Part shown: one piece after another, positions 7,863-47,977 of the stretch
Layout of the letters: each line of letters opens with the position of its first letter
How positions within the stretch are numbered: the stretch's first letter is position 1
DNA from: Acidobacteriota bacterium
GTDB taxonomy: Bacteria > Acidobacteriota > Terriglobia > Terriglobales > Acidobacteriaceae
Assembly: GCA_021780315.1 (NCBI GenBank)
Contig: JAJXYY010000041.1
Span: forward strand, 62,001 to 126,000
Direction: 5' to 3'
Length of the DNA: 64,000 bases
Translations under genes and position numbers: made by a program
Notes under the pieces: generated by a model
What the model was told of the DNA's origin: nothing
Seen by the model: only the letters and a program-made list of their open reading frames with translations
Database searches by the model: none

Positions 7863-7987
7863 CGTGACGATTCCCCTGCTAATAATAGCAACAGTAGATG
7901 TTTCGTCACACTCATTCCGAATGCAACTCCCATGCAGGGGCATTACATGGGGTATCCACTACTGACAAGCAGAGGGTTTTCGCGAGA

Positions 7988-12036: not shown

Positions 12037-12060
12037 GAAACTCAACCTCACCTTTTGGTT

Positions 12061-14340: not shown

Positions 14341-14787
14341 TTACGCATTTGCCGTCAATGCTGAACTTGACGACTTCCAACTGCTGATACCACCCAGCAA
14401 GGCACCATAGACCAGATGAGCGAGGAGTGCGGCAACAGCACCCTTCATTCCCGGTCCGTTCGAACCGAAGACACCCATACCCATCATAGGCATTACCAAG
14501 ATTTCAAGCATCGCCCACAGAATCCCACCCCAGATCAAGCCCTTAACGACGGCGTTGCCAGGAAGAACTCCGAAGAGCAGGAAGACAAAAATCGCGGGAA
14601 AGAGGATCGTCCCGTTCAAAAAATGCACCGCCAGACCTACAGCGTGCGAGGAGCCCATCATCGCCGCCAGGCTCTTCGCGATATCCATGTGAACGCCCAT
14701 CATCGGCGCTACAAACATCATCATCAGGGTCATGGCGATGGTTCCGACCAGCCCTCCGACTACCGCACGACCAAACTGTGGCTTCAT
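14341..14787 (-). CDS. DUF6789-type membrane protein, probable ECF regulon member
   Basis: A 148-residue protein with about four hydrophobic segments rich in Met and Gly (TIAMTLMMMFVAPMMG; MPMMGMGVFG), matching small DUF6789/YagU-like membrane proteins. The Met-rich helices could suit a soft metal such as copper, but that is speculation. An ECF-type promoter at 14811-14835 shares its pattern with those of the sigma gene and both bufferin operons and ends 24 bases before the ATG. Confidence 0.7.
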   Translation of the reverse strand: MKPQFGRAVVGGLVGTIAMTLMMMFVAPMMGVHMDIAKSLAAMMGSSHAVGLAVHFLNGTILFPAIFVFLLFGVLPGNAVVKGLIWGGILWAMLEILVMPMMGMGVFGSNGPGMKGAVAALLAHLVYGALLGGISSWKSSSSALTANA

Positions 14788-14810: not shown

Positions 14811-14835
14811 GATGCACGGGAGCGACAAAGGTTAC
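14811..14835 (-). promoter_or_regulatory. ECF-type promoter for the DUF6789 gene
   Basis: On the minus strand the site reads GTAACCT, then 14 bases, then CATC (GTGCATC). The same heptamer, spacing and tetramer occur upstream of the ECF sigma gene (15801-15825) and of both bufferin operons (15861-15885, 38814-38838). It ends 24 bases before the ATG, giving a short leader. Confidence 0.7.
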
Positions 14836-14868: not shown

Positions 14869-15096
14869 TCAGATGTGACGATCAAGGAAAGAGTGCAGTC
14901 TTTCCTCGTATCCCATCGGAAGCTCGAAGGTCTGTTCATCCCCTGAAATAACGAGGACCTTTCGCACACTATCGAGCAGCACCGAGCAGCGACGGCAATG
15001 GGAGAGGTGGCGCTCGATCTCACCACAGAGCTCTCGATGTACATCCCCTTCAATGTAGCCAGAGAGGTTCTGAGCTAACTTTTTGCACGAGACCAT
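14869..15096 (-). CDS. zinc-finger anti-sigma factor
   Basis: A 75-residue protein with the ZAS/zf-HC2 pattern: a Cys/His pair near the N-terminus and HLSHCRRC (HX3CX2C). No membrane segment is present, so it is a soluble anti-sigma factor that could sense metal or thiol stress directly through its zinc site. The start overlaps the end of the sigma gene by 22 bases, ensuring coupled synthesis. Confidence 0.85.
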   Translation of the reverse strand: MVSCKKLAQNLSGYIEGDVHRELCGEIERHLSHCRRCSVLLDSVRKVLVISGDEQTFELPMGYEERLHSFLDRHI

Positions 15097-15740
15097 GGAT
15101 TCATTCCTTTCAAAAGCTGGATGTGATCGCTAAAGCGGGGCCTAAATACTGGGCCAAGTTGTTCCTGAATCTTCATTCGTGCTCGATGCACACGGGTCTT
15201 GACGACTCCAACCGAAACTCCCAGACCATCGGCTACATCCGCGTAACTCAGATGCTGGCTGTCGACGAGCAGCAGAACCTCGCGATACATTTCAGGCAGG
15301 CTCATCACTGCGTTGCGGACGGCATCCCTCAGCTCTTCGCGTTCCAGCGCCTCGTGCGGCAAATCGTGCCAATCTGCAAACTGTCTGGGCGCCGAATCGG
15401 ACTCAATGTCTTCCTGCACCTCGTCAATCGATTCGTACAGTTGTCTCCTAAGTTGGCGGCGGTGCATACGAGCTTCATTGACAACAATCTGCAATACCCA
15501 CGGTCGGAAGCGACGTCGATCTTGAAGTTTTGACAGATGTAGGAAGGCCTTTAGCGCACCTTCTTGAACCGCCTCCTCCGCATCTGCGGGGTTGCGTAAA
15601 ACGGACAAAGCCGCAGAGAACATCAATTTCGCGTAAGGGCGAATGAGGTCATGGAAGCACGCTTTCTCACCCGCGCAGATGCGCGCTATAAGTTGCTCTT
15701 CCTGAGCGATGCCAAAACACACGTTGATCACAGGCTCCAA
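15075..15740 (-). CDS. ECF RNA polymerase sigma factor
   Basis: A 221-residue ECF sigma factor: region 2 (about residues 30-95, with PYAKLMFSAALSVLRNPADAEE and FRPWVLQIVVNEAR) and region 4 (about 150-205, with LPEMYREVLLLV and DGLGVSVGVVKTRVHRAR). It overlaps its anti-sigma gene. Its own promoter region contains GTAACCT-N14-CATC on the minus strand, back to back with an identical-pattern site facing the bufferin operon, which implies autoregulation and control of copper-peptide genes. Confidence 0.93.
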   Translation of the reverse strand: MEPVINVCFGIAQEEQLIARICAGEKACFHDLIRPYAKLMFSAALSVLRNPADAEEAVQEGALKAFLHLSKLQDRRRFRPWVLQIVVNEARMHRRQLRRQLYESIDEVQEDIESDSAPRQFADWHDLPHEALEREELRDAVRNAVMSLPEMYREVLLLVDSQHLSYADVADGLGVSVGVVKTRVHRARMKIQEQLGPVFRPRFSDHIQLLKGMNPWSRAKS

Positions 15741-15800: not shown

Positions 15801-15825
15801 GATGCTCGTTGGGATGGGAGGTTAC
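15801..15825 (-). promoter_or_regulatory. ECF-type promoter for the sigma/anti-sigma operon
   Basis: The minus strand reads GTAACCT, 14 bases, then CATC (CGAGCATC), 60 bases upstream of the sigma ATG. It matches the three other sites in heptamer, tetramer and spacing, and lies back to back with the bufferin promoter at 15861-15885. Confidence 0.7.
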
Positions 15826-15860: not shown

Positions 15861-15885
15861 GTAACCTTCGCCTCCTGCGACCATC
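15861..15885 (+). promoter_or_regulatory. ECF-type promoter for bufferin operon 1
   Basis: GTAACCT, 14 bases, CATC (CGACCATC), on the plus strand about 70-95 bases upstream of the precursor-peptide ATG. Same pattern and spacing as at 14811, 15801 and 38814. Confidence 0.72.
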
Positions 15886-15952: not shown

Positions 15953-16222
15953 ATGACTATTTCAATGAAATCCCTTTGTATGGCAGCCGCTGTCGCCGGA
16001 ATGCTCGGCGGCACATCCATTCGCATGCAGGCGCAACCCTTGGCGGGTTCGAGCGCAGCGCTCACCGGAGCGGCCTCGCAAGCGCCCCAGACCGCCAAAC
16101 CCAAGCACTCCTGCAAAGGCAAGAACTCCTGCAAGGGTCAGGGAGCTGATGGCAAGAACTCCTGCAAGGGAAAGGGTAGCTGCGCGACGGACGGCTCGAA
16201 ACCGGCGATGCCCAAGATGTAA
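15953..16222 (+). CDS. bufA: bufferin-type metallophore precursor peptide (copy 1)
   Basis: An 89-residue precursor with an N-terminal signal peptide (Sec cleavage likely near RMQAQ) and a Lys/Gly/Ser-rich core with four cysteines in repeated CKGK-NS or CKGQG units. In known bufferin systems a DUF692 enzyme with its DUF2063 partner oxidises cysteines of such periplasmic peptides, which then bind copper. AGGAG precedes the start. DUF692, DUF2063 and DoxX genes follow. A second copy with the same layout is at 38907. Confidence 0.85.
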   Translation: MTISMKSLCMAAAVAGMLGGTSIRMQAQPLAGSSAALTGAASQAPQTAKPKHSCKGKNSCKGQGADGKNSCKGKGSCATDGSKPAMPKM

Positions 16223-16327
16223 GGTTTGCTGGCGACGGATTGCGGGGCGGGGCGTAATGCTACCCCCGCAATCGCCACCGAGACAAAAGCAGAGATTGCA
16301 CCACTGACGAAGCCATTTGGAGACGCA

Positions 16328-17206
16328 ATGCCCGCCAATCGTTTCAACGGCTTTACCGACTATGGCGTGGGGATCGGACTGAGGATACCTCACTATCAGC
16401 ACATCTTCGAGCAGAAGCCGGTCGTCGATTGGTTTGAGATCATCTCCGAAAACTACATGGTCGATGGCGGCAGACCGCTTTATATCCTCGACCAGATTCT
16501 CGATCAATATCGCGTGGTCCAGCATGGTGTTTCGATGTACTTTGGATCGGCGGAGCCACTCAACCGCGAACATTTGCGACGATTGAAAGAACTCGTTCGG
16601 CGGACCAATACCCCCTGGCTTACCGACCACCTGTGCTGGGGCAGTGTCGATGGTCGCTACACCCACGATCTGCTGCCAATGCCTTATACCTTTGAAGCCG
16701 CGCGAATCACCGCCGAAAAGGTTCGCCAGGTCCAGGACTTTGTCGAAGTCCCTGTCGCGGTCGAGAACGTGAGCAGCTATGCGGAATTTCATCTCTCTGA
16801 GATGACCGAGTGGGAGTTCCTGAACGAAGTCGTTGAGCAGGCCGACTGCGGCATCCTCCTCGACGTGAACAATATCTATGTCTCCTCGCGCAATCACGGT
16901 TTCAATCCGCTGGAGTATGTGAACAGTGTTCCAGCTGAGCGGGTCGCTCAGATCCACATCGCCGGGCACTCACAGTTTCAGAAGTACACCCTCGACACGC
17001 ACGATCATCCTGTCATCGAGCCCGTCTGGCAGTTGTACAAGCGGGCTATCGAACGGTGCGGTCCAACTGCGACCCTGCTGGAGTGGGATGACAAGATTCC
17101 ATCTTTTGAAGAGGTGCATCGAGAGGCGCTGAAGGCAAACCGGTTCCTCCAGAAAGAGGATGAAGAGTCTCTCGCCTGGCGTTGCTTCGCAGAGGCCATG
17201 CAATGA
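16328..17206 (+). CDS. bufB: DUF692 multinuclear iron oxidase (MNIO) acting on the bufferin precursor
   Basis: A 292-residue DUF692 protein. The ATG at 16328 is chosen because GGAG stands upstream and the paralogue at 39303 begins with the same MPANRFNGFT. TIM-barrel metal-ligand regions are visible: WFEIISENYM, VQHGVS, LTDHLCWG, VAVENVSSY, LLDVNNIYVSSRNH, IHIAGH, DTHDHP and LEWDD. MNIOs use iron to rework Cys residues of peptide substrates. The stop overlaps the next gene's ATG. Confidence 0.93.
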   Translation: MPANRFNGFTDYGVGIGLRIPHYQHIFEQKPVVDWFEIISENYMVDGGRPLYILDQILDQYRVVQHGVSMYFGSAEPLNREHLRRLKELVRRTNTPWLTDHLCWGSVDGRYTHDLLPMPYTFEAARITAEKVRQVQDFVEVPVAVENVSSYAEFHLSEMTEWEFLNEVVEQADCGILLDVNNIYVSSRNHGFNPLEYVNSVPAERVAQIHIAGHSQFQKYTLDTHDHPVIEPVWQLYKRAIERCGPTATLLEWDDKIPSFEEVHREALKANRFLQKEDEESLAWRCFAEAMQ

Positions 17207-18120
17207 GTGACGCACTACTCAATTTCCAGAGGCGCGTGGCCGCAGCGGTCATGGAACCGCTCACACGTAACGAGACAACGCGAAAAACTCGGCGAGATGG
17301 TGTCGACATGGAACGCGAGGCTTCCGACCTCATCAAGCCGAATGCTTCGCTCTCGTCGCTTCAACGGTTGGAGATCTACAACCGGCAATACTGGTTCCGG
17401 CTGTATTCGAGCTTTGAAGATGATTTCCCCGGACTGTTGACGGTTCTGGGGCACAAAAACTTTGAGCAAGTCATGAGGGCTTATCTTGATGCTCGCCCTT
17501 CTACGTCTTACACGCTTCGCGATCTCGGCAGCCGACTCTACTCGTTCCTAGTGGAACATCAGGAACTCACTGCTCCCAAGAACCTTCTTGCTCAGGATGT
17601 TGTGCGGCTGGAGTGGGCACATATTGAGGCCTACGACGCAGCTGCAATTCCGCCGCCCACATCAGAGTTTTTTGCGTCGATCACGGACACAACGGTATTG
17701 CGCCTTCAACCGTGCATCCGCCTTTTGAATCTCTCTTATCCAGTGGACGAACTCCTGATCGCCGTCAGGCAGGATGCGGGGAGCAATGACACCTCCAGCA
17801 ACAACGCTACGGCAACACGTAAAAAATCTGCCGTTCGGCGTGTATCTCGGCTTGCCCCGACTCCAATCTGGCTTGCTGTCCACCGCCAGGAGTTCACGGT
17901 GTACTACAAGCGTCTGCTGCCGGAAGAGTATCGGATGCTGACTGCGATCCAATCTGGGGCGGCGTTCGAACAAGTCTTGGCGACAGCCTTTAGTGACGGC
18001 ATGATGGACGAAACAGCCCAGGCGGCGTTGCTTCGGCAAGCCTTTCAACAATGGGCAGCTCTCGGTTGGCTCTGCGCGTCCGACATACCTTACACCTCAG
18101 ACAACAGCCAAAGGAGATAG
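17203..18120 (+). CDS. bufC: DUF2063 / BufC-HvfC-type partner of the MNIO
   Basis: A 305-residue protein starting at 17203, where ATGA overlaps the MNIO stop. The N-terminal DUF2063 domain (about residues 5-110) contains LERLEIYNRQYWFRL-like and DDFPGLLTVLG segments, the usual family signature. A C-terminal extension covers the rest. In characterised MNIO systems this protein binds the precursor and presents it to the enzyme. Confidence 0.9.
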   Translation: MSDALLNFQRRVAAAVMEPLTRNETTRKTRRDGVDMEREASDLIKPNASLSSLQRLEIYNRQYWFRLYSSFEDDFPGLLTVLGHKNFEQVMRAYLDARPSTSYTLRDLGSRLYSFLVEHQELTAPKNLLAQDVVRLEWAHIEAYDAAAIPPPTSEFFASITDTTVLRLQPCIRLLNLSYPVDELLIAVRQDAGSNDTSSNNATATRKKSAVRRVSRLAPTPIWLAVHRQEFTVYYKRLLPEEYRMLTAIQSGAAFEQVLATAFSDGMMDETAQAALLRQAFQQWAALGWLCASDIPYTSDNSQRR

Positions 18121-18123
18121 AAA

Positions 18124-18633
18124 GTGAATCTGAAGACGATGCCCCTTGCCGTAACGCGTTGCTACAAGTCTTTCGGGAAAGTAGCATCCTATGCGCAGTC
18201 CCCGTTCCTGCTGCTGGTTCGCCTTTACTGGGGGTGGCAGTTCGCACAGACAGGCTGGGGAAAGCTACACAATCTTCCGCAGATCACAACGTTCTTTACC
18301 TCTCTCAATCTGCCTTTTCCTGCCTTTACTGCCCACTTCGTCGCTGGTGTTGAATTCATCGGCGGGATTATGCTCATCTTGGGGGTCTTGTCACGATTCA
18401 CAGGGCTGGTGTTGTCCATCAATATGTTTGTCGCTTATTGGACGGCTGACCGGGATGCACTGAAGTCCATCATCAGCGACCCTGGAAAGTTCTATGTCGC
18501 TGATCCTTACACATTCCTGTTTGCGTCGCTCATGATTCTCATCTTCGGCGCGGGATTATTCTCGTTGGACCGGCTGCTTGAAGAGTGGCTGATTAGCAAG
18601 ATGGCACCACGGAGACTGCGTCAGCCATTATGA
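18124..18633 (+). CDS. DoxX-family membrane protein of the bufferin operon
   Basis: A 169-residue protein starting with GTG at 18124, four bases after the BufC stop. Four membrane segments and the DoxX signatures LVRLYWGWQFAQTGWGKL and PFPAFTAHFVAGVEFIGG are present. DoxX proteins often accompany bufferin and other MNIO operons, probably as redox or electron-supply membrane partners. The last bases overlap the MFS start (ATGA). Confidence 0.9.
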   Translation: MNLKTMPLAVTRCYKSFGKVASYAQSPFLLLVRLYWGWQFAQTGWGKLHNLPQITTFFTSLNLPFPAFTAHFVAGVEFIGGIMLILGVLSRFTGLVLSINMFVAYWTADRDALKSIISDPGKFYVADPYTFLFASLMILIFGAGLFSLDRLLEEWLISKMAPRRLRQPL

Positions 18634-21646: not shown

Positions 21647-22084
21647 TCACAGAGCCGCTGATGACGCTGCCTTCTTGCGGCTCCCCTTAGCTTCATCCGT
21701 AGCCAACGACTGGATGATCGGACACACGCCGCGCTCGTGCTTTGACTCACACTGCAGGACCATCCCCTGTAGAGCATCACGGATCGATTGCAGAGCAGCA
21801 ATCTTCTCCTCCACGAGATGCAGCTTTTTGAGCGCTAGTTCATGGGTCACATCGCATATCTGCGGACCATCCAGTTCGAGCAGGTCGGCGATATTGTCCA
21901 GATTGAATCCAAGGGTCTGGGCACGCTTGATGAAGCGAATGCGCTGGACGTCGGCATGGCTGTACTCCCGGTAGCCGGTCGCCGGCTTCTCCGGTTCGGC
22001 CAGCAAGCCCGAGCGTTGGTAGAACCTTACCGTCTCCACGCCCACCTCGGCGGCTTGTGCCAACCTCGCAATCGTTAGTTTCAT
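21647..22084 (-). CDS. merR: mercury-responsive regulator MerR
   Basis: A 145-residue MerR with N-terminal winged HTH (ARLAQAAEVGVETVRFYQRSGLL) and long dimer helix. Cysteines at 77, 112 and 121 have exactly the spacing (35 and 9) of the Hg(II)-binding triad Cys82/117/126 of Tn501 MerR. It is divergent from merTPA, and the MerR operator lies between the two. This is a true Hg(II) sensor rather than a general MerR protein. Confidence 0.95.
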   Translation of the reverse strand: MKLTIARLAQAAEVGVETVRFYQRSGLLAEPEKPATGYREYSHADVQRIRFIKRAQTLGFNLDNIADLLELDGPQICDVTHELALKKLHLVEEKIAALQSIRDALQGMVLQCESKHERGVCPIIQSLATDEAKGSRKKAASSAAL

Positions 22085-22091
22085 TTCACTC

Positions 22092-22123
22092 TTGACTCCG
22101 TACCTATGTACGGAGCATACAGT
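22092..22123 (+). promoter_or_regulatory. mer operator-promoter
   Basis: A -35 TTGACT (22092-22097) is followed by the dyad CTCCGTAC-CTAT-GTACGGAG (22096-22115), a perfect 8-4-8 repeat, and an extended spacer of 19-20 bases to a TACAGT-like -10. This is the classic MerR-untwisted promoter. The dyad is shared by the divergent merR gene. Confidence 0.92.
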
Positions 22124-22150
22124 GGGTAGAGACGAGGAGAAAAGGGAAAT

Positions 22151-22513
22151 ATGCCGATAGAAAATTCCAATTCAAAATCCAGTTCCACGGCTCTCGCAGT
22201 GGGCGGTCTGGCAGCAATCCTTGCCTCTACCTGCTGTCTGGGACCGCTGGCGCTGATTGCCATTGGGTTTAGTGGAGCCTGGATAGGTAACCTGTCGAGG
22301 CTGGAGCCATATCGCCCCATCTTTATCGGCGTCGCTCTGGTTGCGATGTTCTTCGGCTGGCGCGCAATCTATCGACCGGCCAAGGACTGCAATCCCGGCG
22401 ACGTCTGTGCTCTGCCGCAGACGAAGCGCATCTACAAGGTATTGTTCTGGATTGTCGTGATCCTTGTACTGATTGCCCTGTCCTTTCCTTACCTAGCACC
22501 TCTTTTCTACTAG
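22151..22513 (+). CDS. merT: mercuric ion transporter MerT
   Basis: A 120-residue inner-membrane protein with three membrane segments. The vicinal Cys28-Cys29 in STCCLGPLAL lies in the first helix and a second pair, Cys80 and Cys86 (KDCNPGDVCA), in the cytoplasmic loop, which are the MerT hallmarks for passing Hg(II) from MerP to MerA. It is the first gene of the mer operon. Confidence 0.93.
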   Translation: MPIENSNSKSSSTALAVGGLAAILASTCCLGPLALIAIGFSGAWIGNLSRLEPYRPIFIGVALVAMFFGWRAIYRPAKDCNPGDVCALPQTKRIYKVLFWIVVILVLIALSFPYLAPLFY

Positions 22514-22530
22514 GGAGGCCGTGATCAAGT

Positions 22531-22692
22531 ATGCGATGTGGTTGTTCGTCCCCACGTGCTCAAGCCCCTTCTTCTAGCTCGTCCGATGCGCGGATTTCTT
22601 GTGCCCTCGATGCTGTAGTTCACCAAGCGATTTCCAATATGGCATCCACACTGATGCCCCGAACACTACCAACATCCGTAACGAAGGAGTGA
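22531..22692 (+). CDS. possible small Cys-containing ORF between merT and merP
   Basis: A 53-codon frame (MRCGCSS start, one more Cys in the middle) fills the 181-base gap between merT and merP and stops two bases before the merP ATG. AGGGAGG lies 12 bases upstream, a rather long spacing. It matches no mer protein I know and has no membrane segment. It may be chance; the gap itself is larger than is usual in mer operons. Confidence 0.25.
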   Translation: MRCGCSSPRAQAPSSSSSDARISCALDAVVHQAISNMASTLMPRTLPTSVTKE

Positions 22693-22694
22693 CC

Positions 22695-24454
<1,760 letters not shown>

Positions 24455-27728: not shown

Positions 27729-27773
27729 CTCATAACCCAAAGGTCGTAGGTTCAAATCCTACCCCCGCAACCA
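27729..27773 (+). other. attachment site: duplicated 3' part of initiator tRNA(fMet)
   Basis: The segment begins in the anticodon arm (CTCATAACCC, anticodon CAT at 27731-27733), continues through a T arm with a perfect GTAGG/CCTAC stem around TTCAAAT, and ends with CCCCCGCAACCA, the acceptor 3' strand plus encoded CCA typical of bacterial initiator tRNA. The 5' half is absent. Such 3'-end copies mark the far end of elements integrated into tRNA genes. With this orientation the intact tRNA should lie beyond the left edge, which makes 1-27773 the ICE. Confidence 0.82.
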
Positions 27774-33300: not shown

Positions 33301-34007
33301 ATCTCGCCGATGTGGCCTACACGCGAGGAGTCGGCGGAGGTACCGTTAATTAGCACTTCCTTGGTATTGGCTTGTGATCCACCAACCTGGCCCTGATAGT
33401 CGCTGCCGGAGACGGTGGGCGTGATGGCAAATGCAAACGCCGTAATATCGCGCCCTTGATAGGCTGAGAGGGGAAGCGTGCTTACCTCCTCGCTCGTCAA
33501 GTTGGTGCCTAGCTCGGTGTTGATCTTGAGCAGTGGCACTGCCTCAACGGTTATGGTCTGGGTCTCCGCGCCTACTTTCAACTGAACGTCCATCTGGGCC
33601 TTTTGCTGCACCTGGATCGCGACACCAGTGTGGACGACGGACGAAAAGCCAGGTTTGCTGTACGTAATGTTGTACGACGCAATCGGCAGGTTCAGAAGAT
33701 TGTAGATACCGGCGGAGTTGGTGACCGCTTTGGTTGCCTGATCGGTGGCCGGATCGACTGCAACGACCTGAACACCCGGAATCACTGCACCGGTAGAGTC
33801 CGTGATGGTACCGGTAATCGTGCCGCGGTCTACTTGAGCCTGGACGGGTGTTCCGAGAGCAGTAAGGTACAGGAGAGCCAGACAGATCCCATTCGAGACG
33901 ATCTGCATGCATTTCGTAGTTCCATACGTCTTATTGATTGCCGTTGCCCGCGAGACCCGAGGCTGAGTGCCAAGAAATTGAAGTAGACGCGTTATTAGAG
34001 TTTTCAT
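30333..34007 (-). CDS. Oar-like TonB-dependent receptor with carboxypeptidase-regulatory domain
   Basis: A 1,224-residue outer-membrane receptor. A signal peptide (about residues 36-58, ending PVQAQ) is followed by a carboxypeptidase-regulatory-like domain (about 62-140; GTITGTITDSTGAVIPGVQV), a plug, and a long beta-barrel ending in VSARVSW with a terminal aromatic residue. This architecture is greatly expanded in Acidobacteriota. GAGGAAA precedes the ATG. With its glycan-related neighbours it probably imports oligosaccharides. Confidence 0.93.
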   Translation of the reverse strand: MKTLITRLLQFLGTQPRVSRATAINKTYGTTKCMQIVSNGICLALLYLTALGTPVQAQVDRGTITGTITDSTGAVIPGVQVVAVDPATDQATKAVTNSAGIYNLLNLPIASYNITYSKPGFSSVVHTGVAIQVQQKAQMDVQLKVGAETQTITVEAVPLLKINTELGTNLTSEEVSTLPLSAYQGRDITAFAFAITPTVSGSDYQGQVGGSQANTKEVLINGTSADSSRVGHIGEMEPPMDAVGQFQVDTAGISAAAGRTGGGAFLFELKQGTNQFHGSAFGIYENKALNANLWTNNYFRSYYDATDPTNSATYNTTYAKPTDTYDDYGLSGGFPIWRNHMFLFAALERYHQADFSTTEGGSTVPTDQFLHGDFSQLLQTNLPSLGKDHAGNTIYVGSIWNPATGNVFVGNIIPQSMFSAVSQSVAAIYEKYYKPTIATRDTLNYPRLNQIDPQFTQTQLTFNYSWDVRSNNRINSSYIYVLRPRYNASLTNGNNLWQTGSNDGGPLASGGLQTTVSNAYRINDSWTLSPNLLNVAAFTFNAFQNKALPLTSIAGNNNWAQQIGLGDFQSVSNFPVVTFGGSLNGVSEIAIGSSRTLHSGGVEYNGIFDDTLTWTHGKHTVNAGFEMRALGVNTDTSGGALHFNFSQTAGAPLVAKIQSLTGFSFADFMLGDVASASKDTPFNQYGRRKEFALFIEDSYKIAPKFTLDYALRWDVPLAEHVLRGQWSNFTANAANANFGSSLGSMQYLTNGGQTFEEHSNYTQFSPHVGASYALTSRIVIRGGWGLYFVPLGNNTYGAVPYGSSYGYHTINQVLVKPQAYQYAFNWDTGYPGQEIATTADNSSAYIPYGPASVSPDTLTMGRTQNWNANIQYQFAGTWVLHGSYIGNVGDKLHAGALNPHNWATWSAYSQLYQTGKAQAYITNASQAAALKVNYPYPGWTGTAFQAIAPYPQVARTYGPIYFVNDPLGHTAYNAFILEVTKRSPNGLSMNLSYTLAKATGNTADAYVDTFSASNGYQDPYNYQNYAKYPEAGYAPQVAKGFLTYQLPFGRGQRYFAAGRLSNAILGGWLAGAILNYQSGAPIGAIHAQTNYPGWSGLWVDVAQNASFKNTFKKLDLINLHNTSNQFIDPTIFSNPADGQLGNSPVTYGNWHGWATGNEDVSLTKQFGIGHDGRYKVLLRGEFFNAFNRHHYGNPNLNIGGPYFGQVTNVVGNPRQGQVSARVSW
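33859..33890. repeat. 32-bp sequence repeated at 38658-38689
   Basis: This part of the receptor's signal-peptide coding region (encoding the ICLALLYLT stretch) is identical over 32 bases to 38658-38689 outside any gene, which suggests that a second receptor gene once lay there. Confidence 0.7.
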
Positions 34008-38657: not shown

Positions 38658-38710
38658 GCAGTAAGGTACAGGAGAGCCAGACAGATCCCCTTCGTGTCGA
38701 TCTACAGTGG
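38658..38710 (-). pseudogene. remnant of a TonB-receptor signal-peptide region
   Basis: On the minus strand this encodes GICLALLYLTA, as at the receptor's signal peptide (33855-33905); 32 bases are identical (38658-38689), with weaker similarity on the flank. No receptor body follows. It is a fragment left by duplication and deletion, just upstream of bufferin operon 2. Confidence 0.6.
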
Positions 38711-38813: not shown

Positions 38814-38838
38814 GTAACCTTAGCCTCTCCGCACCATC
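38814..38838 (+). promoter_or_regulatory. ECF-type promoter for bufferin operon 2
   Basis: GTAACCT, 14 bases, CATC (GCACCATC) on the plus strand, about 70 bases upstream of the precursor ATG. The pattern and spacing match the sites at 14811, 15801 and 15861, although no sigma gene is near this copy. Confidence 0.7.
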
Positions 38839-38906
38839 CCACGGTGCACAAGCCAACCGTCGCTTACAGGGGGACGGAAAGCGAATCTAAACCAGGAGAA
38901 TCTAAC

Positions 38907-39200
38907 ATGACCAATTCTATGAAATCAGTATGTATGGCAGCTGCGGTAGCCGGGCTGCTCGGTGGCTCAATGATTCGGATGCAGGCGCAGACGGTAGCTG
39001 GACATGTTTCTGGAAGCAATGCTGCTATCGCCAGTGCTATCGCGGGCAACTCTTCCTTCGCGACTGATCCGCAGAAGCCAAAGCATGCGTGCAAGGGGCA
39101 GAATGCGTGCAAGGGGCAGGGTGCAGATGGTAAGAACTCCTGCAAAGGTAAGGGTAGCTGCGCAACGGACGGCTCCAAGCCGCCGATGTCCCAGATGTAA
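38907..39200 (+). CDS. bufA: bufferin-type metallophore precursor peptide (copy 2)
   Basis: A 97-residue precursor starting at 38907 (AGGAG upstream). The signal peptide is close to that of copy 1 and the core again has four cysteines in CKGQ-NA or CKGKGS units. The linker between signal peptide and core is longer and diverged. DUF692, DUF2063 and DoxX genes follow as in copy 1. Confidence 0.85.
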   Translation: MTNSMKSVCMAAAVAGLLGGSMIRMQAQTVAGHVSGSNAAIASAIAGNSSFATDPQKPKHACKGQNACKGQGADGKNSCKGKGSCATDGSKPPMSQM

Positions 39201-39302
39201 GCTTCGTACTGATGTGGCTGCGGGGTGTGCCTTGCTACCGTCCCGCAGTCTTCTCTAAATTCGTTCCTTTACCGATGAATAAGTCCCAAGTGGAGTTACA
39301 CC

Positions 39303-40193
39303 ATGCCTGCCAATCGCTTCAATGGCTTCACTGAATATGGTGTTGGGATCGGCCTGAGAATACCGCATTACCAGCATATTTTCGAGCAAAAGCCTGTGGT
39401 TGACTGGTTCGAGATCATATCGGAAAACTACATGGTGGATGGTGGCAGACCGCTCTATATCCTTGATCAAATTCTCGACCAGTATCGTGTTGTGCAGCAT
39501 GGTGTGTCGTTGTACTTGGGCTCTGCCGAGCGGCTCAATCGGGAGCATCTACGCAGATTGAAAGAACTGGTTCGGCGAACAAAGACTCCTTGGCTGACAG
39601 ACCATCTGTGCTGGGGTAGCGTGGATGGGCGCTATACCCATGACCTGTTGCCGATGCCCTACACTTTTGAAGCTGCACGAGTTACTGCAGAAAAAATCCG
39701 CCACGTACAGGATTTTCTTGAGATTCCGATTGCAGTAGAGAATGTAAGTAGCTACGCCGAGTTTCATGTTTCTGAGATGACCGAATGGGAGTTTCTTGTC
39801 GAAGTTGTCGAGCAAGCTGACTGTGGAATTCTTTTAGATGTGAATAATATCTACGTTTCATCACGCAATCATGGCTTTGATGCGCTGGAGTATGTCAACA
39901 GTATTCCAGCCGAGCGCGTGGCGCAGATTCACATTGCAGGACACTCCAAGTTTCAAAAATATACGTTAGATACGCACGATCACCCTGTGATCGAACCAGT
40001 ATGGCAACTCTACAAGCGCTCAATTGAACGGTGTGGCTCAACGGCGACGCTGTTGGAATGGGACGACAATATTCCTTCCTTCGAAGAGGTGCATCGTGAG
40101 GCACTGAAGGCGAATTGCTTTCTCGATCAGCAGCATGAAAGTGCGGGAATTAGGCCGATTTCTACGGTTGTCTCGCAGCCAGGGGCTATGTAA
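39303..40193 (+). CDS. bufB: DUF692 MNIO enzyme (copy 2)
   Basis: A 296-residue DUF692 protein about 85-90% identical to copy 1 over most of its length by eye, differing mainly in the C-terminal tail. All metal-ligand regions seen in copy 1 are kept. Third codon positions are clearly richer in A/T than in copy 1, so the two have evolved apart for some time or come from different donors. Confidence 0.93.
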   Translation: MPANRFNGFTEYGVGIGLRIPHYQHIFEQKPVVDWFEIISENYMVDGGRPLYILDQILDQYRVVQHGVSLYLGSAERLNREHLRRLKELVRRTKTPWLTDHLCWGSVDGRYTHDLLPMPYTFEAARVTAEKIRHVQDFLEIPIAVENVSSYAEFHVSEMTEWEFLVEVVEQADCGILLDVNNIYVSSRNHGFDALEYVNSIPAERVAQIHIAGHSKFQKYTLDTHDHPVIEPVWQLYKRSIERCGSTATLLEWDDNIPSFEEVHREALKANCFLDQQHESAGIRPISTVVSQPGAM

Positions 40194-41077
40194 TGACCAG
40201 TCAGCTGCTTCAATTACAGCGACGCATGGCGACTGCAGTGATGGAGCCATTGACGCGTCAGGAGACTACGCGCAAGATCCGGCGTGATGGTGCTGTCATG
40301 GCGAGGGAGGCGTCAGTGTTTATCAAGCCTAATGCTTCGCTGACATCGCTGGAACGCCTGGAGATTTATAACAAGCAATATTGGTTTCGGTTGTATTCGA
40401 GCTTAGAGGACGATTTTCCCGGCCTTCTGGCGGTATTGGGACGGAGAACGTTTGAGCGAGTGATGCGTTGCTATTTGGACACATATCCTTCAACTTCGTT
40501 TACATTGCGCGATCTAGGGAGCAAGCTTCTAATGTATTTGAGCAGTCATGAAGCGCTTACTGGCGGCAAAAGTAAGCTGGTACTGGATGTAGTGGGTTTG
40601 GAATGGGCCCACATTGAGGCCTACGATGCTGCGACTTTTCCTGCACCTGAACCAAAGTATTTCGCAGGGATTACGGATGATAGTCTCTTACGATTACAAC
40701 CCTCTGTCAGGCTTCTTGAGTTATCTTATCCAGTCGATGACCTTCTGATTTCGATCCGACAGAGTATAGGCAGTAGCGATACTTCCAGCAATAATGCCTC
40801 CGTAACACGTAAGAGCTCGACAATCCGATACGTGGGGAAGATAAGCCCTACGAATTTATGGCTTGCTGTCCACCGACAGGAGTTCGCGGTTTATTACAAA
40901 CGACTTCGGCCGGAGGAATATCGAATGCTTTGTGGAATCCAAGCGGGCCTTCCGCTCGGCGAAGTGTTTGGAACTGCTTTCCAGGGCAGCACGATGGACG
41001 AGGCCTCGCAGGCAGATTTGCTTCAAGAAGCCTTTCATCAATGGGCTGTTCTCGGCTGGCTGTGCGCACCAGAGTAG
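40193..41077 (+). CDS. bufC: DUF2063 / BufC-type partner protein (copy 2)
   Basis: A 294-residue protein whose ATG shares a base with the MNIO stop. The N-terminal DUF2063 domain (LERLEIYNKQYWFRL, DDFPGLLAVLG) is well conserved with copy 1. The C-terminal half is more diverged but keeps LWLAVHRQEFAVYYKRL. Confidence 0.9.
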   Translation: MTSQLLQLQRRMATAVMEPLTRQETTRKIRRDGAVMAREASVFIKPNASLTSLERLEIYNKQYWFRLYSSLEDDFPGLLAVLGRRTFERVMRCYLDTYPSTSFTLRDLGSKLLMYLSSHEALTGGKSKLVLDVVGLEWAHIEAYDAATFPAPEPKYFAGITDDSLLRLQPSVRLLELSYPVDDLLISIRQSIGSSDTSSNNASVTRKSSTIRYVGKISPTNLWLAVHRQEFAVYYKRLRPEEYRMLCGIQAGLPLGEVFGTAFQGSTMDEASQADLLQEAFHQWAVLGWLCAPE

Positions 41078-41110
41078 CCACGTTAGCAAAGACACCATCT
41101 GGAGATAAAA

Positions 41111-41602
41111 ATGAATACGACGAGTATTTTCGCTGCTTTGGCCCGTTATTACCAAAAATTTGGAGATCTTGCGTCGTCTGCACAGTCTCCGTTCCTGCTA
41201 TTGGTTCGACTGTACTGGGGCTGGCAATTTGTACAAACTGGTTGGGGAAAGCTGCACAATCTTCCCCAGATCACTGTGTTTTTTGTTTCTCTGAATCTGC
41301 CGTTTCCAGCCTTCACCGCAGGTTTTGTTGCATGGGTGGAGCTAGTTGGGGGCATACTACTGATCCTTGGGCTACTCTCGCGATTTACAGGGTTAGTGCT
41401 CGCAGCCAATATGTTCGTTGCTTACTGGACTGCGGACAGAGTAGCCCTACAGTCTATCTTTAGTGATCCAGGAAAGTTTTACGTGGCTGATCCCTACACA
41501 TTTCTCTTTGCCTCACTGATGGTTCTGATTTTCGGCGCAGGTTTGTTTTCCTTGGATGAAGTGTACGGTCGATGGGCCTTTGCCAAGAAGAGTCCGCACT
41601 GA
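41111..41602 (+). CDS. DoxX-family membrane protein (copy 2)
   Basis: A 163-residue DoxX protein with four membrane segments, very similar to copy 1 (LVRLYWGWQFVQTGWGKL). It ends operon 2; unlike copy 1 there is no MFS transporter or flavoprotein after it. Confidence 0.9.
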   Translation: MNTTSIFAALARYYQKFGDLASSAQSPFLLLVRLYWGWQFVQTGWGKLHNLPQITVFFVSLNLPFPAFTAGFVAWVELVGGILLILGLLSRFTGLVLAANMFVAYWTADRVALQSIFSDPGKFYVADPYTFLFASLMVLIFGAGLFSLDEVYGRWAFAKKSPH

Positions 41603-42716: not shown

Positions 42717-43964
42717 TTAGTGCGCTGCGGCATGAATCTGTCCGATGCCGAATGCTGCGTCGAAGTCCACTTCCATGAGCATGTAAGAGCAGTTGGGGCA
42801 GATGAGCCAATTGGGTACGGGGAAGTTTCGCTGGTGGCGGAGTTGGCAGATTTCGTACTCCAATTGGAGATAAGTTTGGGGCGAGATACCGTCGGCAGGG
42901 GAGTAGGCGGTGCCGTCGACGGGCCAGAGTGGCGAGTAAAGCGGTGTGATACCACGGTCAAGGAGGTACTCTGCTCCTTCGCGGATGCTGGACAGCATCT
43001 GTTCGGTAGTCATGCCCGGAGCAGGGGGTGGGACTTCAACCCCGGCGACGAAGGCAGAGGCGACGTTACCCCAGCCAAAGACATCGACGGCATCGGTAAG
43101 TGCCTTGATCCAGCGATCGCGTCCGACGGACTTAGCCTTGCCGGGACAGACGGCCTCGAATGTTGCCGCATCCCATGTCTCCATGTTGTAGCAGCAGGTG
43201 TCGGCACCAGCATCGAGGTACTGCATGGAGCCATCGCGGTCGACTGCACCGGAGCCAGCGGTGACGTGCATGGCATTACCTACAGCGGCGCGAGCTACTT
43301 TGATGACGGGACTGAAGCGCTGGACCTCCTGCTCGGGGTGCAAGGTCGATCCGCCAACGATGTAGACGTGGCGGGCTTCCCCTGTCTTTGCGGCGTTGGT
43401 GAGGACTTCGCTCAGGCGATCGAGGGTACGGCTGTTGGGTGGGATGATTCCCGGGAGTTGGCCTAGTGACTGGGTTTTGGCGTTGAATCTGCCATAACCG
43501 CAGAACTTGCAACTGGACTTCGTCATAAAGTACTCGCAGCCGGGAGTGAGGTTGACGACCAGCATGTCGCCAAGTTGCTCGACCCCTGCTTCCGAGTAGG
43601 TGCTGCCATCACTGGTTCGGAAGGAGGCCCAGGAGTGCTCTGGAACAAATGCTACGTCACAGAGTGGTTCTCCGTGGCTGGTGAGCAGGTAGCCGTTGGA
43701 GCTATGCTGCACTTCGAATTCGCTGGCATCGTTGACGCGTACGCGAGCGACAGCGTTCTCCAGCTTGAAGAGATAGGGAACCGGCAATAACTGGCCATGT
43801 CCGTCGGGGGTTATTTTGCGATGGGGCCAATAGTTGGGTGCTGCACCGTTCGTTACTGCGTCAGTGAGAGCGTTGGAGTAACGGACTCCCTTGAACATGA
43901 GTTCAGCTTTCCAGACGATTGGTTTTGGCAGGACATCGTAGAGTTCATCGAAGGACACATTCAT
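42717..43964 (-). CDS. radical SAM-like protein with unusual CX8CX2C motif
   Basis: About 415 residues from the ATG at 43964 (AGAGG upstream; a GTG three codons earlier is possible). The likely cluster motif is GCEYFMTKSSCKFCGYGRF, i.e. CX8CX2C rather than the usual CX3CX2C, followed by VYIVGGSTLHPEQE and HVTAGSGAVDRDG, which fit a radical SAM barrel. A C-terminal CPNC may bind another metal. It is divergent from an O-methyltransferase and next to the ebo cluster. Substrate unknown. Confidence 0.6.
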   Translation of the reverse strand: MNVSFDELYDVLPKPIVWKAELMFKGVRYSNALTDAVTNGAAPNYWPHRKITPDGHGQLLPVPYLFKLENAVARVRVNDASEFEVQHSSNGYLLTSHGEPLCDVAFVPEHSWASFRTSDGSTYSEAGVEQLGDMLVVNLTPGCEYFMTKSSCKFCGYGRFNAKTQSLGQLPGIIPPNSRTLDRLSEVLTNAAKTGEARHVYIVGGSTLHPEQEVQRFSPVIKVARAAVGNAMHVTAGSGAVDRDGSMQYLDAGADTCCYNMETWDAATFEAVCPGKAKSVGRDRWIKALTDAVDVFGWGNVASAFVAGVEVPPPAPGMTTEQMLSSIREGAEYLLDRGITPLYSPLWPVDGTAYSPADGISPQTYLQLEYEICQLRHQRNFPVPNWLICPNCSYMLMEVDFDAAFGIGQIHAAAH

Positions 43965-44283
43965 AGGGATCACAACCTCTTAGTAGTTAGGGGCCCGATC
44001 AGTGCCATCTGGCGCAAGGAAAAGCGCCTGAAGCGGGATCATACCGCTAACAACGAAATTAGTGAAGAAGAGATTTAGGAATTGAAGCAGAACGGCGAGA
44101 AGAGGTTTGCTGCTGGACAGAGGCAGTGAGGGCGCAGGGAAGTTTCCAGAAAGGAGTGTTATCTATACGATTTGAGTGAAAATAGTTGCTTGCTTACACG
44201 GATCGGATTATTCTCAGCACACTTGCTTCGGGCCCCCGGTAGAGCTGCTTTGCTACTTTGCGGAATCAGGAGAAGTTCTCGCC
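43965..44283. other. divergent intergenic region, no gene recognised
   Basis: About 320 bases between the divergent radical SAM and methyltransferase genes, presumably holding both promoters. I see no clear riboswitch or known operator. An in-frame upstream extension of the methyltransferase into this region (from 44176) lacks a ribosome site. Confidence 0.5.
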
Positions 44284-45303
44284 ATGGATCATGAGATAAC
44301 CGGAACCGTTCCTAACCCGGGGCTGATTATGGAGTTGGCGAGCGCATTCTATGGTTCGTGCGTCTTGTTTACAGCATCGGATCTGGGCATCTTTGCGAAG
44401 TTAGCGGAGATGGAGAGCGCGGATGCTGCGATGGTGGCTGGAAGACTGGGCAGCGATGTTCGCGCAACAACCCTGTTACTGGACGGGTGCGTAGCCTTGG
44501 GGCTACTGTCGAAGACCCGAAGTATGTACCGCAACACCGCATCGACGGCTGCATTTTTAGTGCCGGGTCGGCCGGGAGATCTGTCGCGTGCAATCCGTTT
44601 CAATCGGGACGTATACGAGGCTTGGGGCAAACTACCGGCGTTTGTGAAGGCTGGTGTGCCGGTGGAGCCACCGGAAGCGCATCTAGGCGATGATGTGGAG
44701 CGCACCCGCACGTTTGTGCTTTCGATGCATGGACGTGCTATGGGAATTGGCCGAGCAGTTGTTGCGCAGTTAGACCTTACGGGGCGCAAGCAGATGTTGG
44801 ATATAGGTGGCGGGCCGGGGACTTACTCTACCTTGATCGTGCAGGCATATCCGGAGTTGAAATCAACGGTACTGGATTTGCCGGGTGTGGTGGCTGTGGG
44901 ATCAGAGTTGGTGGCGCAGGCTGGTGCCTCTGACAGGGTGACGATGCTGCCTGGTAACTACCACTCGACACCGTATCCGGTAGGCAATGACGTGGTGATT
45001 ATCTTTGGTGTACTGCATCAAGAGTCGGCCGAGTCGATTGCTGCAATCCTGCGACGGGCCTATGGTGCGTTGGTACCTGGGGGTGTGATTTACATCCTCG
45101 ACATGATGACGGATGAAACGCATACCAAACCGGTATTTTCGGCTCTGTTTGCTTTGAACATGGCGTTAATTGCAAAGGATGGCTGGGTATTCTCGGATAA
45201 AGAGTTATGTGGCTGGCTGGAGCAGGCGGGATTTGTGGACTTTGAGGTTAGGCCAGTGGCGCCTCCCATGCCCCACTGGCTGGCGTTTGCCAGAAAGCCA
45301 TGA
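44284..45303 (+). CDS. O-methyltransferase (AdoMet-dependent, plant-type family 2-like)
   Basis: A 339-residue protein starting at 44284, where AGGAGAAG stands ten bases upstream. An N-terminal dimerisation winged helix (about residues 10-95; VLFTASDLGIFAKLAE) and a SAM domain with LDIGGGPGTYS, TVLDLPGVV and GGVIYILDMM are present, as in acetylserotonin or hydroxyneurosporene O-methyltransferases. It reads toward the ebo genes and may modify the same pathway product. Confidence 0.85.
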   Translation: MDHEITGTVPNPGLIMELASAFYGSCVLFTASDLGIFAKLAEMESADAAMVAGRLGSDVRATTLLLDGCVALGLLSKTRSMYRNTASTAAFLVPGRPGDLSRAIRFNRDVYEAWGKLPAFVKAGVPVEPPEAHLGDDVERTRTFVLSMHGRAMGIGRAVVAQLDLTGRKQMLDIGGGPGTYSTLIVQAYPELKSTVLDLPGVVAVGSELVAQAGASDRVTMLPGNYHSTPYPVGNDVVIIFGVLHQESAESIAAILRRAYGALVPGGVIYILDMMTDETHTKPVFSALFALNMALIAKDGWVFSDKELCGWLEQAGFVDFEVRPVAPPMPHWLAFARKP

Positions 45304-45545
45304 CCGAATGAAGAAGCAAACTATTTCATCTGTGAGCGAAAAAGATTGCAGAGTGCTAAAGGTCGCAAACGTCGGACCGGATGCAAGAGTAAGTGGAAGT
45401 CCAGGTAACGCATTGCACTAGAGGGTGATTTGCTGGAGCGAGCGATGGATTTGCAAATGGTACCTCAATTGCATTAGTTACCGCGTTCAGCGCATACATG
45501 GGCCCTGGTTAAGCAAAGGTCAAGTAGGGGCTCAGGAGTTGTGCC

Positions 45546-46463
45546 ATGGACCTAATTACTTCCTCACCGCCGGCTAAAGCACACTCGGACACTGTTCCGC
45601 TCGCTCATATTGGTGCGTATGTGCGGCTGGTGCGTCCTGCGAATCTGGTGACTGCGGCTGCTGACGTGATTGCTGGTTATCTGGTTGCGGGGGGTGGATC
45701 GGATGCACTGGGCTGGCTGATTGGTGCGAGTGTTTGTTTGTATGCCGGCGGTGTAGTGCTGAATGATTATTTTGATCGTGATCTGGACTCAGTGGAACGT
45801 CCGGAGCGACCACTTCCGCAAGGGCTCGTGTCTGCGAGGGCAGCGGCTGTTCTTGGAGTATTGTTGCTGTCTTCGGGGGTTGCTGCAGCCTTCTACGCCT
45901 CAACGATTACCGGTGTGATTGCAGTTTGTATTGCAATGGCGGTACTGCTGTATGACGCAGTCGCCAAGGAGCAGTCGATTGGTCCAGTGGTGATGGGAAC
46001 GTGTCGCGCGTTGAACCTGCTCATGGGACTGACAGTAGCTCCAGCACTCCTTGGACATACATGGCTTTGGATGCTGCTGCCATTGGCGTACATCGGTGGA
46101 CTGACCCTGCTGAGCAGGGATGAGGTGTTTGGGGGGAGTCGCACTGGGAGTGCTGCGATGTTGGGGGTGCTTTCGTTCGTGGTCGTAGGGATTACTGTGA
46201 TGCAGGGCGTTTCGGTTGAACGATGGTTGCGGGTGTTTCCGTTTATCGCGTTGCTGTTGCTCAAGGTGGTGCCACCGTTGTGGCGTGCGTATCGACGTCC
46301 AGAGGCAATACAGATTCGCGCGGCTGTACATGCCGGAGTGGTGTCACTGATCGTACTGGATGCTGCAATTGCCGCTGGCTCTGCGGGCGTGGTGTTCGGT
46401 GCGGCTATTGTTTCTTTGAGTGTAGTTGCTATGGAGTTGGGGCGTATATTTCCGGTGACTTAA
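45546..46463 (+). CDS. eboC: EboC, UbiA-type prenyltransferase
   Basis: A 305-residue membrane protein with about eight to nine segments and the UbiA motif NDYFDRDLDSVERPERPLP (NDX2DX3D) at about residue 76. It transfers a prenyl group to an unknown acceptor. First of the ebo genes here. The downstream eboD ATG follows three bases after the stop. Confidence 0.9.
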   Translation: MDLITSSPPAKAHSDTVPLAHIGAYVRLVRPANLVTAAADVIAGYLVAGGGSDALGWLIGASVCLYAGGVVLNDYFDRDLDSVERPERPLPQGLVSARAAAVLGVLLLSSGVAAAFYASTITGVIAVCIAMAVLLYDAVAKEQSIGPVVMGTCRALNLLMGLTVAPALLGHTWLWMLLPLAYIGGLTLLSRDEVFGGSRTGSAAMLGVLSFVVVGITVMQGVSVERWLRVFPFIALLLLKVVPPLWRAYRRPEAIQIRAAVHAGVVSLIVLDAAIAAGSAGVVFGAAIVSLSVVAMELGRIFPVT

Positions 46464-46465
46464 TC

Positions 46466-47650
46466 ATGAGATCGCTACAGCAGAAATTTACCGTTGCATA
46501 CGAGTATCCGGTTCATTTTACGACGAGTGCTTTTGCCGCAGACAATCGCGTCCTCGTAGACACGCTATTGTCTGCAGGGCCCGGTCCGCATCGGCTGCTC
46601 TGTGTTCTGGATGAGGGAGTTCTGCTGTCTTGTGCCCGCATACTAGAGCAGATTGAAGCGTATGCGCGACAGCATCGGGAGACGATCAAGATGGTCTGTT
46701 CGCCACTCGTTCTTTCTGGTGGCGAGGAGGTAAAGAACGACAAGGATGGTTATCTGACGATCGAAGCGGCGATCCAAGAACTGGGAATATGTCGGCAGTC
46801 ATTTGTGCTAGCCATTGGTGGAGGTGCTTTACTCGATCTGGCTGGATTCGCAGCGGGTACAGCGCACAGGGGTGTTCGCTTGATTCGTATGCCAACGACG
46901 GTTCTTTCGCAAGATGATTCGGGTGTTGGTGTAAAGAACAGCATCAATGCGTTCGGTAAGAAGAATTTTTTGGGAACATTTGTTCCGCCGTTTGCTGTGA
47001 TCAACGACTCTGCCTTTCTACATGGACTATCGCAGCGGGACTGGATTGGGGGGACGGCTGAAGCAGTGAAGGTTGCGTTGCTTAAGGATCCATGTTTTTT
47101 CAGGGCTATCGAACAGAGTGCAGATGAGTTGGCGCTACGTGGTGAGGCTGCCATGCAGCAACTTATTCACCACTCTGCGGAGCTACATTTACAGCACATC
47201 GGTCTTGGCGGCGATCCGTTTGAGACAAGCTCTTCGCGTCCTCTGGACTTCGGACACTGGTCGGCACACAAGCTGGAGCAGCTAACGAATTTTGAGTTGC
47301 GTCATGGAGAGGCCGTAGCGATCGGCATTGCTCTTGATTCGACCTACTCGTATCTGGATGGCTTGTTAGCGCATGGCGATTGGCAACGGATCTTAATGCT
47401 GCTAGCGCGATTGGGATTTGCATTGAGCATACCGAATACGGTTCGCAAACTGGGACCCATGGAGGAAGCTGACTCTCTGTTACACGGCCTGGTGGAGTTT
47501 CGAGAGCATCTTGGGGGTGAGTTGACGATCACTCTGTTGCGAGGGATTGGCGAGCCGATGGAGGTTCATTCGATGGACGAAGAACTCGTGATCTCAGCGG
47601 TACGAGCGGTAGAAGAGTGGAGTTATGCAATGCAGTTGTCCACGGTCTAA
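46466..47650 (+). CDS. eboD: EboD, 3-dehydroquinate synthase homologue
   Basis: A 394-residue sugar-phosphate cyclase-type protein (dehydroquinate synthase fold) with NAD-binding AIGGGALLDLAGFAAGT, the VPTT-like RMPTTVLSQDDSGVG and metal-ligand regions GGTAEAVKV, HWSAHKLE and RHGEAVAIG. The ATG at 46466 is chosen; an 81-codon upstream extension lies inside eboC in another frame. In ebo clusters it probably makes a cyclic polyol or related precursor. Confidence 0.9.
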   Translation: MRSLQQKFTVAYEYPVHFTTSAFAADNRVLVDTLLSAGPGPHRLLCVLDEGVLLSCARILEQIEAYARQHRETIKMVCSPLVLSGGEEVKNDKDGYLTIEAAIQELGICRQSFVLAIGGGALLDLAGFAAGTAHRGVRLIRMPTTVLSQDDSGVGVKNSINAFGKKNFLGTFVPPFAVINDSAFLHGLSQRDWIGGTAEAVKVALLKDPCFFRAIEQSADELALRGEAAMQQLIHHSAELHLQHIGLGGDPFETSSSRPLDFGHWSAHKLEQLTNFELRHGEAVAIGIALDSTYSYLDGLLAHGDWQRILMLLARLGFALSIPNTVRKLGPMEEADSLLHGLVEFREHLGGELTITLLRGIGEPMEVHSMDEELVISAVRAVEEWSYAMQLSTV

Positions 47651-47662
47651 AAGGAGTGAACG

Positions 47663-47977
47663 ATGAAGAACATAGACTCACGTTGTCCGTTGCCATTACG
47701 TCGAATTGTGGATGAGTACTTTGCGGAGAGTCGCAATAAGATGCTGGAACTGGGGGCGTTCTTCGACCGATTGGACCGAGCGGGTGATGCCGCCGATCCG
47801 GATGAAGAGTTTCGTGTAGTGGCACTGAAACGCGCTGCTGGAGTGTTACTGGAGCCGGGACCGCAACGTGTGAAGCGTATGGCGCTGCTGCTCAGTGATC
47901 CAACCGAAGAGCCACGCGAGTATTTGGATCGTAAGGCCGCGTGGGGTGCGTATGCAGACACTGGGGAGGGAATCTGA
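47663..47977 (+). CDS. small conserved protein of the ebo cluster
   Basis: A 104-residue soluble protein with helical, charged composition ([37 protein letters not shown]). It stands where eboA might be expected but is about half the usual EboA length and I see no EboA signature, so I do not assign it. AGGAG precedes the start and its stop overlaps the eboB ATG (TGATG). Confidence 0.65.

Follow-up and report, generated by a model that had tools for sequence, protein, structure and literature searches.

We found that a 64,000-nucleotide stretch of the genome of a soil acidobacterium (assembly GCA_021780315.1, contig JAJXYY010000041.1, positions 62,001 to 126,000; "the window" hereafter) carries two operons of the bufferin type, one (copy 1) apparently on an integrative and conjugative element (ICE) and the other (copy 2) outside it. 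Our overall reading, which we hold at a probability of about 65%, is that both are cysteine-peptide metal-buffering operons under extracytoplasmic function (ECF) sigma factor control, that copy 1 travels on an ICE with a mercury-resistance cassette, and that copy 2 is a diverged accessory relative.

The host genome (4.06 Mb in 47 contigs, 99.8% complete) has two matches to DUF692 at E 0.001 or better, both in the window and each part of a complete plus-strand operon: copy 1 at 15953-18633 and copy 2 at 38907-41602. As described in an initial annotation of this DNA, the gene order is the same in both: precursor (A), MNIO (DUF692; B), DUF2063 protein (C) and DoxX (D).

15953..16222, plus strand: copy 1 precursor, 89 aa, four-cysteine core (NCBIfam BufA2 19.1 bits, cut-off 60; cysteine spacing 5-10-5)
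16328..17206, plus strand: copy 1 MNIO, DUF692 (NCBIfam MNIO_BufB 351.4 bits, cut-off 310; PF05114)
17203..18120, plus strand: copy 1 DUF2063 partner (PF09836, E 5e-15; structure model matches 3dee, Z 14.7)
18124..18633, plus strand: copy 1 DoxX (PF07681, E 8e-20)
38907..39200, plus strand: copy 2 precursor, 97 aa, four-cysteine core (NCBIfam BufA2 21.1 bits, cut-off 60; cysteine spacing 5-10-5)
39303..40193, plus strand: copy 2 MNIO, DUF692 (NCBIfam MNIO_BufB 353.3 bits, cut-off 310; D254-D255)
40193..41077, plus strand: copy 2 DUF2063 partner (PF09836, E 7e-13)
41111..41602, plus strand: copy 2 DoxX (PF07681, E 2e-19)

The proteins of the two copies are alike, with identities of 64/89 (precursor), 256/291 (MNIO), 195/294 (DUF2063) and 123/163 (DoxX), and copy 2 is richer in A/T at third codon positions, both as first annotated: the GC content at these positions (GC3) in copy 2 versus copy 1 is 0.517 vs 0.682 for B, 0.517 vs 0.610 for C, and 0.491 vs 0.639 for D. 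Two further parts of that description held only in part. B and C do overlap in both operons, but by 4 nt (ATGA) in copy 1 and 1 nt (TAATG) in copy 2, and the C-D gap is 3 nt in the one and 33 nt in the other. The precursors do differ in the linker between signal and core, which is 8 residues longer in copy 2, but the spacing of the core cysteines is identical. Synonymous differences between the copies are at or near saturation (pS 0.69 to 0.83). Because pS is high in every 40-codon window of the MNIO gene (0.66-1.00), we rejected gene conversion and read the high MNIO protein identity as purifying selection. With MNIOs 88% identical and near-identical cores, modification of one copy's peptide by the other's enzymes is plausible.

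Assignment to the bufferin family was borne out by family models and active-site residues. Both MNIOs score above the BufB cut-off and below that for HvfB. The motifs expected of the MNIO family, which we take to hold its metal ligands, are all present in both copies. Each enzyme has an aspartate next to the catalytic aspartate (LLEWDD), where the PDB relative 3bww has phenylalanine (LLERDF), and this second aspartate occurs in 90 of the 97 MNIOs compared, the window's two included; it is the signature of Cys-Lys MNIO enzymes according to the available text of PMC13097082. Each precursor contains three CK motifs, with core motifs of the form N-S/A-C-K-G, and its N-terminus looks by eye like a Sec signal peptide; in a simple hydropathy scan, no stretch of 19 residues came out. 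A structure model of the copy 1 DUF2063 protein (mean predicted local distance difference test score 89.8) matches TglI and NGO1945 (3dee) both by Foldseek (E 2e-5 to 2e-4) and by VIA-align (Z 13.4 and 14.7, respectively), and its residues 164-293 match RRE-type leader-binding proteins of lasso peptide pathways (VIA-align Z 7.8 to 8.8). An MNIO, a DUF2063/RRE partner and a cysteine-rich precursor thus stand together in one operon, an arrangement expected of Cys-Lys captophorins, and we assign both operons, from their sequences, as predicted bufferin-type (Cys-Lys captophorin) pathways with four core cysteines.

We next consider the element that carries copy 1. A 45-bp direct repeat corresponding to the 3' part of tRNA-Met occurs at positions 32-76 of the contig (C39) and again at C39:89729-89773, and a tyrosine integrase gene adjoins the left-end repeat. 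ARAGORN called a tRNA-Met at the very end of the contig from the first 300 bases alone, and none from the whole left-end locus. Between the repeats are genes for a TrwC relaxase, a TrwB-type coupling protein, and VirB4-, VirB8-, CagX- and TrbI-type proteins (VirB4/8/9/10-type), along with a ParB-type protein, a type I restriction system and a mer operon. An integrase, attachment-site repeats at a tRNA, a relaxase, a coupling protein and type IV secretion genes are therefore all present. From these repeats and the genes between them, we place copy 1 on a predicted transferable ICE of about 89.7 kb and copy 2 11 kb outside it, in agreement with the initial annotation.

27729..27773, plus strand: ICE right end, 45-bp repeat of the 3' part of tRNA-Met (left copy C39:32-76, outside the window)
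21647..24454, mixed strands: merR (minus) and merT, merP and merA (plus), beside copy 1 (MerA 577.8 bits, cut-off 454)
15075..15740, minus strand: gene for the ICE's ECF sigma factor, oriented divergently to copy 1 (Pfam Sigma70_r2 and r4_2; 75% identity with its counterpart in the G391 cassette)
14341..14787, minus strand: DUF6789 small membrane protein on the ICE (PF20587, E 9e-16; five hydrophobic stretches; promoter motif ahead)

A related cassette occurs in a genome of another genus (G391), where mer genes, a radical SAM gene, a methyltransferase gene, a bufferin operon (locus L108), and ECF, DUF6789, redoxin, major facilitator superfamily (MFS) and FAD oxidoreductase genes lie together, flanked by an integrase gene and by a gene read by eye as IstB-like. 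A search for the cassette-type ECF factor at E 1e-70 found no other genome among 396 of the phylum, a draw that may lack G391. Both mercury/bufferin cassettes keep a methyltransferase together with a radical SAM protein bearing an HMPTM-type zinc ribbon (9669-12051 in the window); the radical SAM protein resembles tetraether lipid synthase/TrsS, below cut-off.

The two operons share a promoter pattern, as the initial annotation had noted. The window contains three matches to the pattern GTAACCTT-N15-TC, where 0.06 would be expected; allowing one mismatch gives a weak signal (5 matches against 1.96 expected, with 3 of 100 shuffles reaching 5). Refined after these sites had been seen, and so post hoc, the pattern becomes GTAACCTY-N13-CATC, with four matches in the window against 0.02 expected. 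The whole genome contains five exact matches, four of them in this system, and a reversed control gave none.

14811..14835, minus strand: ECF-type promoter motif (GTAACCTY-N13-CATC) before the DUF6789 gene
15801..15825, minus strand: ECF-type promoter motif (GTAACCTY-N13-CATC) before the ICE ECF sigma gene
15861..15885, plus strand: ECF-type promoter motif (GTAACCTY-N13-CATC) before copy 1
38814..38838, plus strand: ECF-type promoter motif (GTAACCTY-N13-CATC) before copy 2, 38814 being the first base of GTAACCTT-N13-CATC

A looser form also has five genome matches, two of them elsewhere (C16 and C23; placed against lists of open reading frames (ORFs) only). In the G391 cassette, GTAACC-N17-TC precedes the bufferin, ECF and DUF6789 genes, with one further match in the locus. 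Among relatives, and counting the two of the window, 30 of 89 precursors have GTAACC no more than 200 bp away (simulated mean 2.6, largest 9 in 500 simulations), and 7 of 89 have it on the opposite strand; in 25 of the 30 sites TC follows 17 bases after it. An ECF gene lies within 4 kb in 34 of 88 relatives' loci, at odds with the available text of PMC12452194, which reports sigma genes with Buf1 and not Buf2. GTAACC is commoner at loci with such a gene (20/34) than at those without (8/54; Fisher p 4e-5, uncorrected for kinship), and is missing within 200 bp in 14 of the 34, Edaphobacter included. We predict on this basis a metal-stress regulon spanning ICE and chromosome, in which the ICE factor would also control copy 2. 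CorE, an ECF factor, reportedly senses copper through a cysteine-rich tail; a CorE-like mode was rejected here, the ICE factor's C-terminus being without a cysteine cluster.

To place the copies among their relatives, we removed seven duplicate loci and built quick trees for each protein (93 sequences of C, 97 of B and 55 of D) and a careful concatenated B+C+D tree of 30 of 33 chosen loci, those having all three. Copy 1 (W1), copy 2 (W2), L108 and L008 form one clade (approximate likelihood ratio (SH-aLRT) support 100 for C, 99 for B and 95 for D; 100/100 in the concatenated tree). L008, which is the same contig as G334:C44, is a relative of copy 2 from the same genus. W1 and W2 as sisters are rejected (p-AU 1e-62, concatenated tree). 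The phylogeny that the initial annotation had proposed as a check thus shows that the copies are not recent tandem duplicates, an origin that we exclude because synonymous sites are near saturation and the sister tree is rejected. The precursors show the opposite pattern to B, C and D: that of L108 is closer to copy 2 (79%) than to copy 1 (67%). Matches to the copy 1 DUF2063 protein at E 1e-100 among 398 family genomes came only from the window's genome and G391; G334, not in that result, gave a match at E 2e-128 in a separate search. BufB is found above cut-off in 107 of 300 family genomes, four of which have two (G000, G141, G183 and G224, the window's included).

In the initial annotation, a mobile copy had come in beside one that was resident or older. 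This picture is supported in part: one copy lies on an ICE and the other in the chromosome, and copy 2 is probably not the genus's usual resident. Of 62 genus genomes, two (G334 and that of the window) have the radical SAM gene of its conserved flank, and copy 2 is a compositional outlier, with only 0 to 2 of 31 flank genes having lower GC3; these two points lead us to regard it, from sequence, as a probable accessory chromosomal copy and not the genus's standing one. Copy 1 is ordinary in GC3 (20 to 31 of 46 ICE genes are lower). No credible remnant of an ECF gene was found upstream of copy 2 by tblastn (best E 0.65), and no known RNA family reached its gathering score in 14000-42000. A 32-bp perfect direct repeat lies at 33859-33890 and 38658-38689, its second copy ending where copy 2/L008 homology starts (38686), possibly a rearrangement point.

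Gene content, ICE ends, phylogeny and the shared promoter motif are observations, from which we infer the chemistry, export, metal and sigma factor targets as follows. The product of each operon would be a peptide that is secreted and buffers metal. With the RRE domain of its DUF2063 partner as a guide, the MNIO would oxidize the core cysteines (N-S/A-C-K-G), most likely to 5-thiooxazoles. The peptide would leave by Sec and, helped by DoxX, bind Cu(I) and possibly other soft metals once in the periplasm. Copy 1 would move on the tRNA-Met ICE inside the mercury-resistance cassette, and copy 2, in an accessory part of the chromosome, would be a divergent representative of the same lineage of operons. 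An ECF sigma factor would switch on both operons, most simply the one beside copy 1. A function in copper buffering is suggested by published bufferin and captophorin work (PMC12452194 and PMC13097082, in their available text), and mercury may be a further target.

Several observations pull against this reading. The precursors fall far below the BufA2 cut-off (19.1 and 21.1 bits against 60) and have four core cysteines, not six; since they miss the cut-off, we call them Buf2-like and not BufA2 members, and file them with the Cys-Lys captophorins provisionally, by genomic criteria. The fifth genomic match to GTAACCTY-N13-CATC, at C22:240350, was placed against the ORF list only, and about one chance match is expected. 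A chromosomal ECF factor on contig C11 is 43% identical to that of the ICE and 54-58% identical to bufferin-linked ECF factors of relatives, among which it falls on a long branch, and its gene has GTAACC-N17-TC 113 bases upstream of the start (0.80 expected in 20 kb), so the C11 factor may read the same promoter class. G334 in turn has the copy-2 type operon and the same motif with only a 43% ECF factor (the genome is 63% complete). Copy 2 might therefore answer to a C11-type chromosomal factor and not to the ICE factor, the operons sharing no more than a promoter class, and we take this as a serious alternative, though one we lean away from: the exact pattern is nearly confined to the ICE system, none occurs with up to one mismatch in 20 kb around the C11 gene, and the -10 element is ATC in copy 2, copy 1 and the G391 cassette but CTC at the C11 site.

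The direction of travel can also be read the other way, in which case copy 2 would be the ancestral chromosomal source and the ICE cassette would have acquired copy 1 from it. The downstream flank of copy 2 is conserved in a related species (L008/G334), with 87-97% identity across Usp, radical SAM and the principal ORFs that follow. The data also allow a grouping of W1 with L108 (p-AU 0.36), and placing W1 outermost is a borderline case (p 0.05). Against this, the best tree has mobile L108 outermost (support 90/83), the copy 2 region is accessory and compositionally odd, and the genus's other copies in the trees fall outside the clade, so that we find such an origin doubtful. We judge it improbable that the target of the ICE copy is mercury and not copper, with the peptide acting as a thiol-type Hg buffer beside MerTPA. 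This idea of a mercury role comes from linkage, which is kept in two genera despite an altered gene order, and MerC-bufferin fusions are reported in the available text of PMC12452194; however, among relatives' loci MerA or MerT matches lie nearby only at L108, so the mer genes may be passengers on one cassette. A long shot is the combined scenario in which the ICE sigma factor drives the chromosomal operon, the maturation enzymes are interchangeable, the thiooxazole peptide of the mercury cassette acts on both Hg and Cu, and copy 2 is the settled relic of an earlier visit by this mobile lineage. If true, metal buffering in the ICE and its host would be run as a single regulon.

Returning to our favored reading, we compared the four-cysteine core with 90 precursors encoded upstream of MNIO genes (88 in relatives' loci and the window's two). 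Five (L035, L040, L071, L074 and L075) did not fit the pattern. Of the 85 parsed, 57 have two middle cysteines (as a rule six cysteines in all), three have one, and 25, the window's two included, are without the middle pair and have four. Mapped onto the DUF2063 tree, where 82 rows could be scored, presence versus absence of the pair requires at least three changes, and which cysteines are needed becomes testable. The shortest middle, ADGK, is common to the window pair, L008 and L108. Buf2 precursors have 6 cysteines in 90% of cases and 12 in the rest, and others of 1 to 18 are mentioned as listed in a supplement, according to the available text of PMC12452194.

The system type itself is known. 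Bufferin 2 (Buf2/BufA2), of which Caulobacter vibrioides has an example, shares the A-B-C order with DoxX, an MNIO above the BufB cut-off, a DUF2063 protein and a Cys-Lys precursor; here, there are four core cysteines instead of 6 or 12, one copy lies on an ICE, and an ECF sigma gene adjoins copy 1, an arrangement that PMC12452194 reports, in its available text, for Buf1 and not Buf2 gene clusters. The sigmaF of Caulobacter recognizes GTAACC-N16-CGAA and has both bufferin operons of that bacterium under its control (PMC3511200, available text). The likeness extends to two paralogous operons (there with DUF2282, Buf1 type), metal stress and the GTAACC -35 element, whereas there sigmaF acts with NrsF on both operons and here the candidate factor is on an ICE and the spacer and -10 differ. 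NrsF was not among the Pfam matches of the examined neighbors of the ICE ECF factor. Captophorins of the Cys-Lys group share the PME1-dependent MNIO, N-A/S-C-K-G motifs and the aspartate beside the catalytic one (PMC13097082, available text), and differ in that our host is an Acidobacteriota bacterium with one copy mobile and the chemistry predicted from genes.

What is new here is that one copy is mobile, that the cores have four cysteines, that an ECF factor is encoded next door and that a second copy, in the chromosome, shares the promoter. Our literature search, with supplements and most subscription papers outside it, found no recognized report of a bufferin on an ICE or, MerC fusions apart, in a mercury cassette. 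Mobile bufferin relatives may not be new as such: 60 plasmid records have distant DUF2063 relatives, eight of these plasmids being predicted conjugative. All 60 match copy 1 at below 60% identity (26-30% for the ten listed), so no close relatives were found on plasmids, nor were there any in viral contigs. A bufferin-type operon and an ECF gene on a transferable element beside mer genes make spread as mobile metal-resistance determinants testable, and the same linkage does so for action on mercury.

A few neighboring features deserve mention. At L112:9518-10484, an ECF sigma gene with GTAACC-N17-TC upstream is followed by a small cysteine-containing anti-sigma-like ORF; the factor is related to the bufferin-linked ECFs of relatives and stands without a bufferin operon, the genome's only two DUF692 genes being those of the window. 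The ICE also carries an AbiEi/AbiEii-type toxin-antitoxin pair (6854-7943). In G391, a 1254-aa protein read by eye as Cas9 (L122, G391:C17:33558-37322) is encoded about 5.5 kb from the cassette integrase. Beside copy 2, at 42717-53031, lies a cluster of radical SAM, O-methyltransferase, UbiA, dehydroquinate synthase-like, TatD-like, phosphodiesterase and MFS genes, which we take to resemble the ebo cluster.

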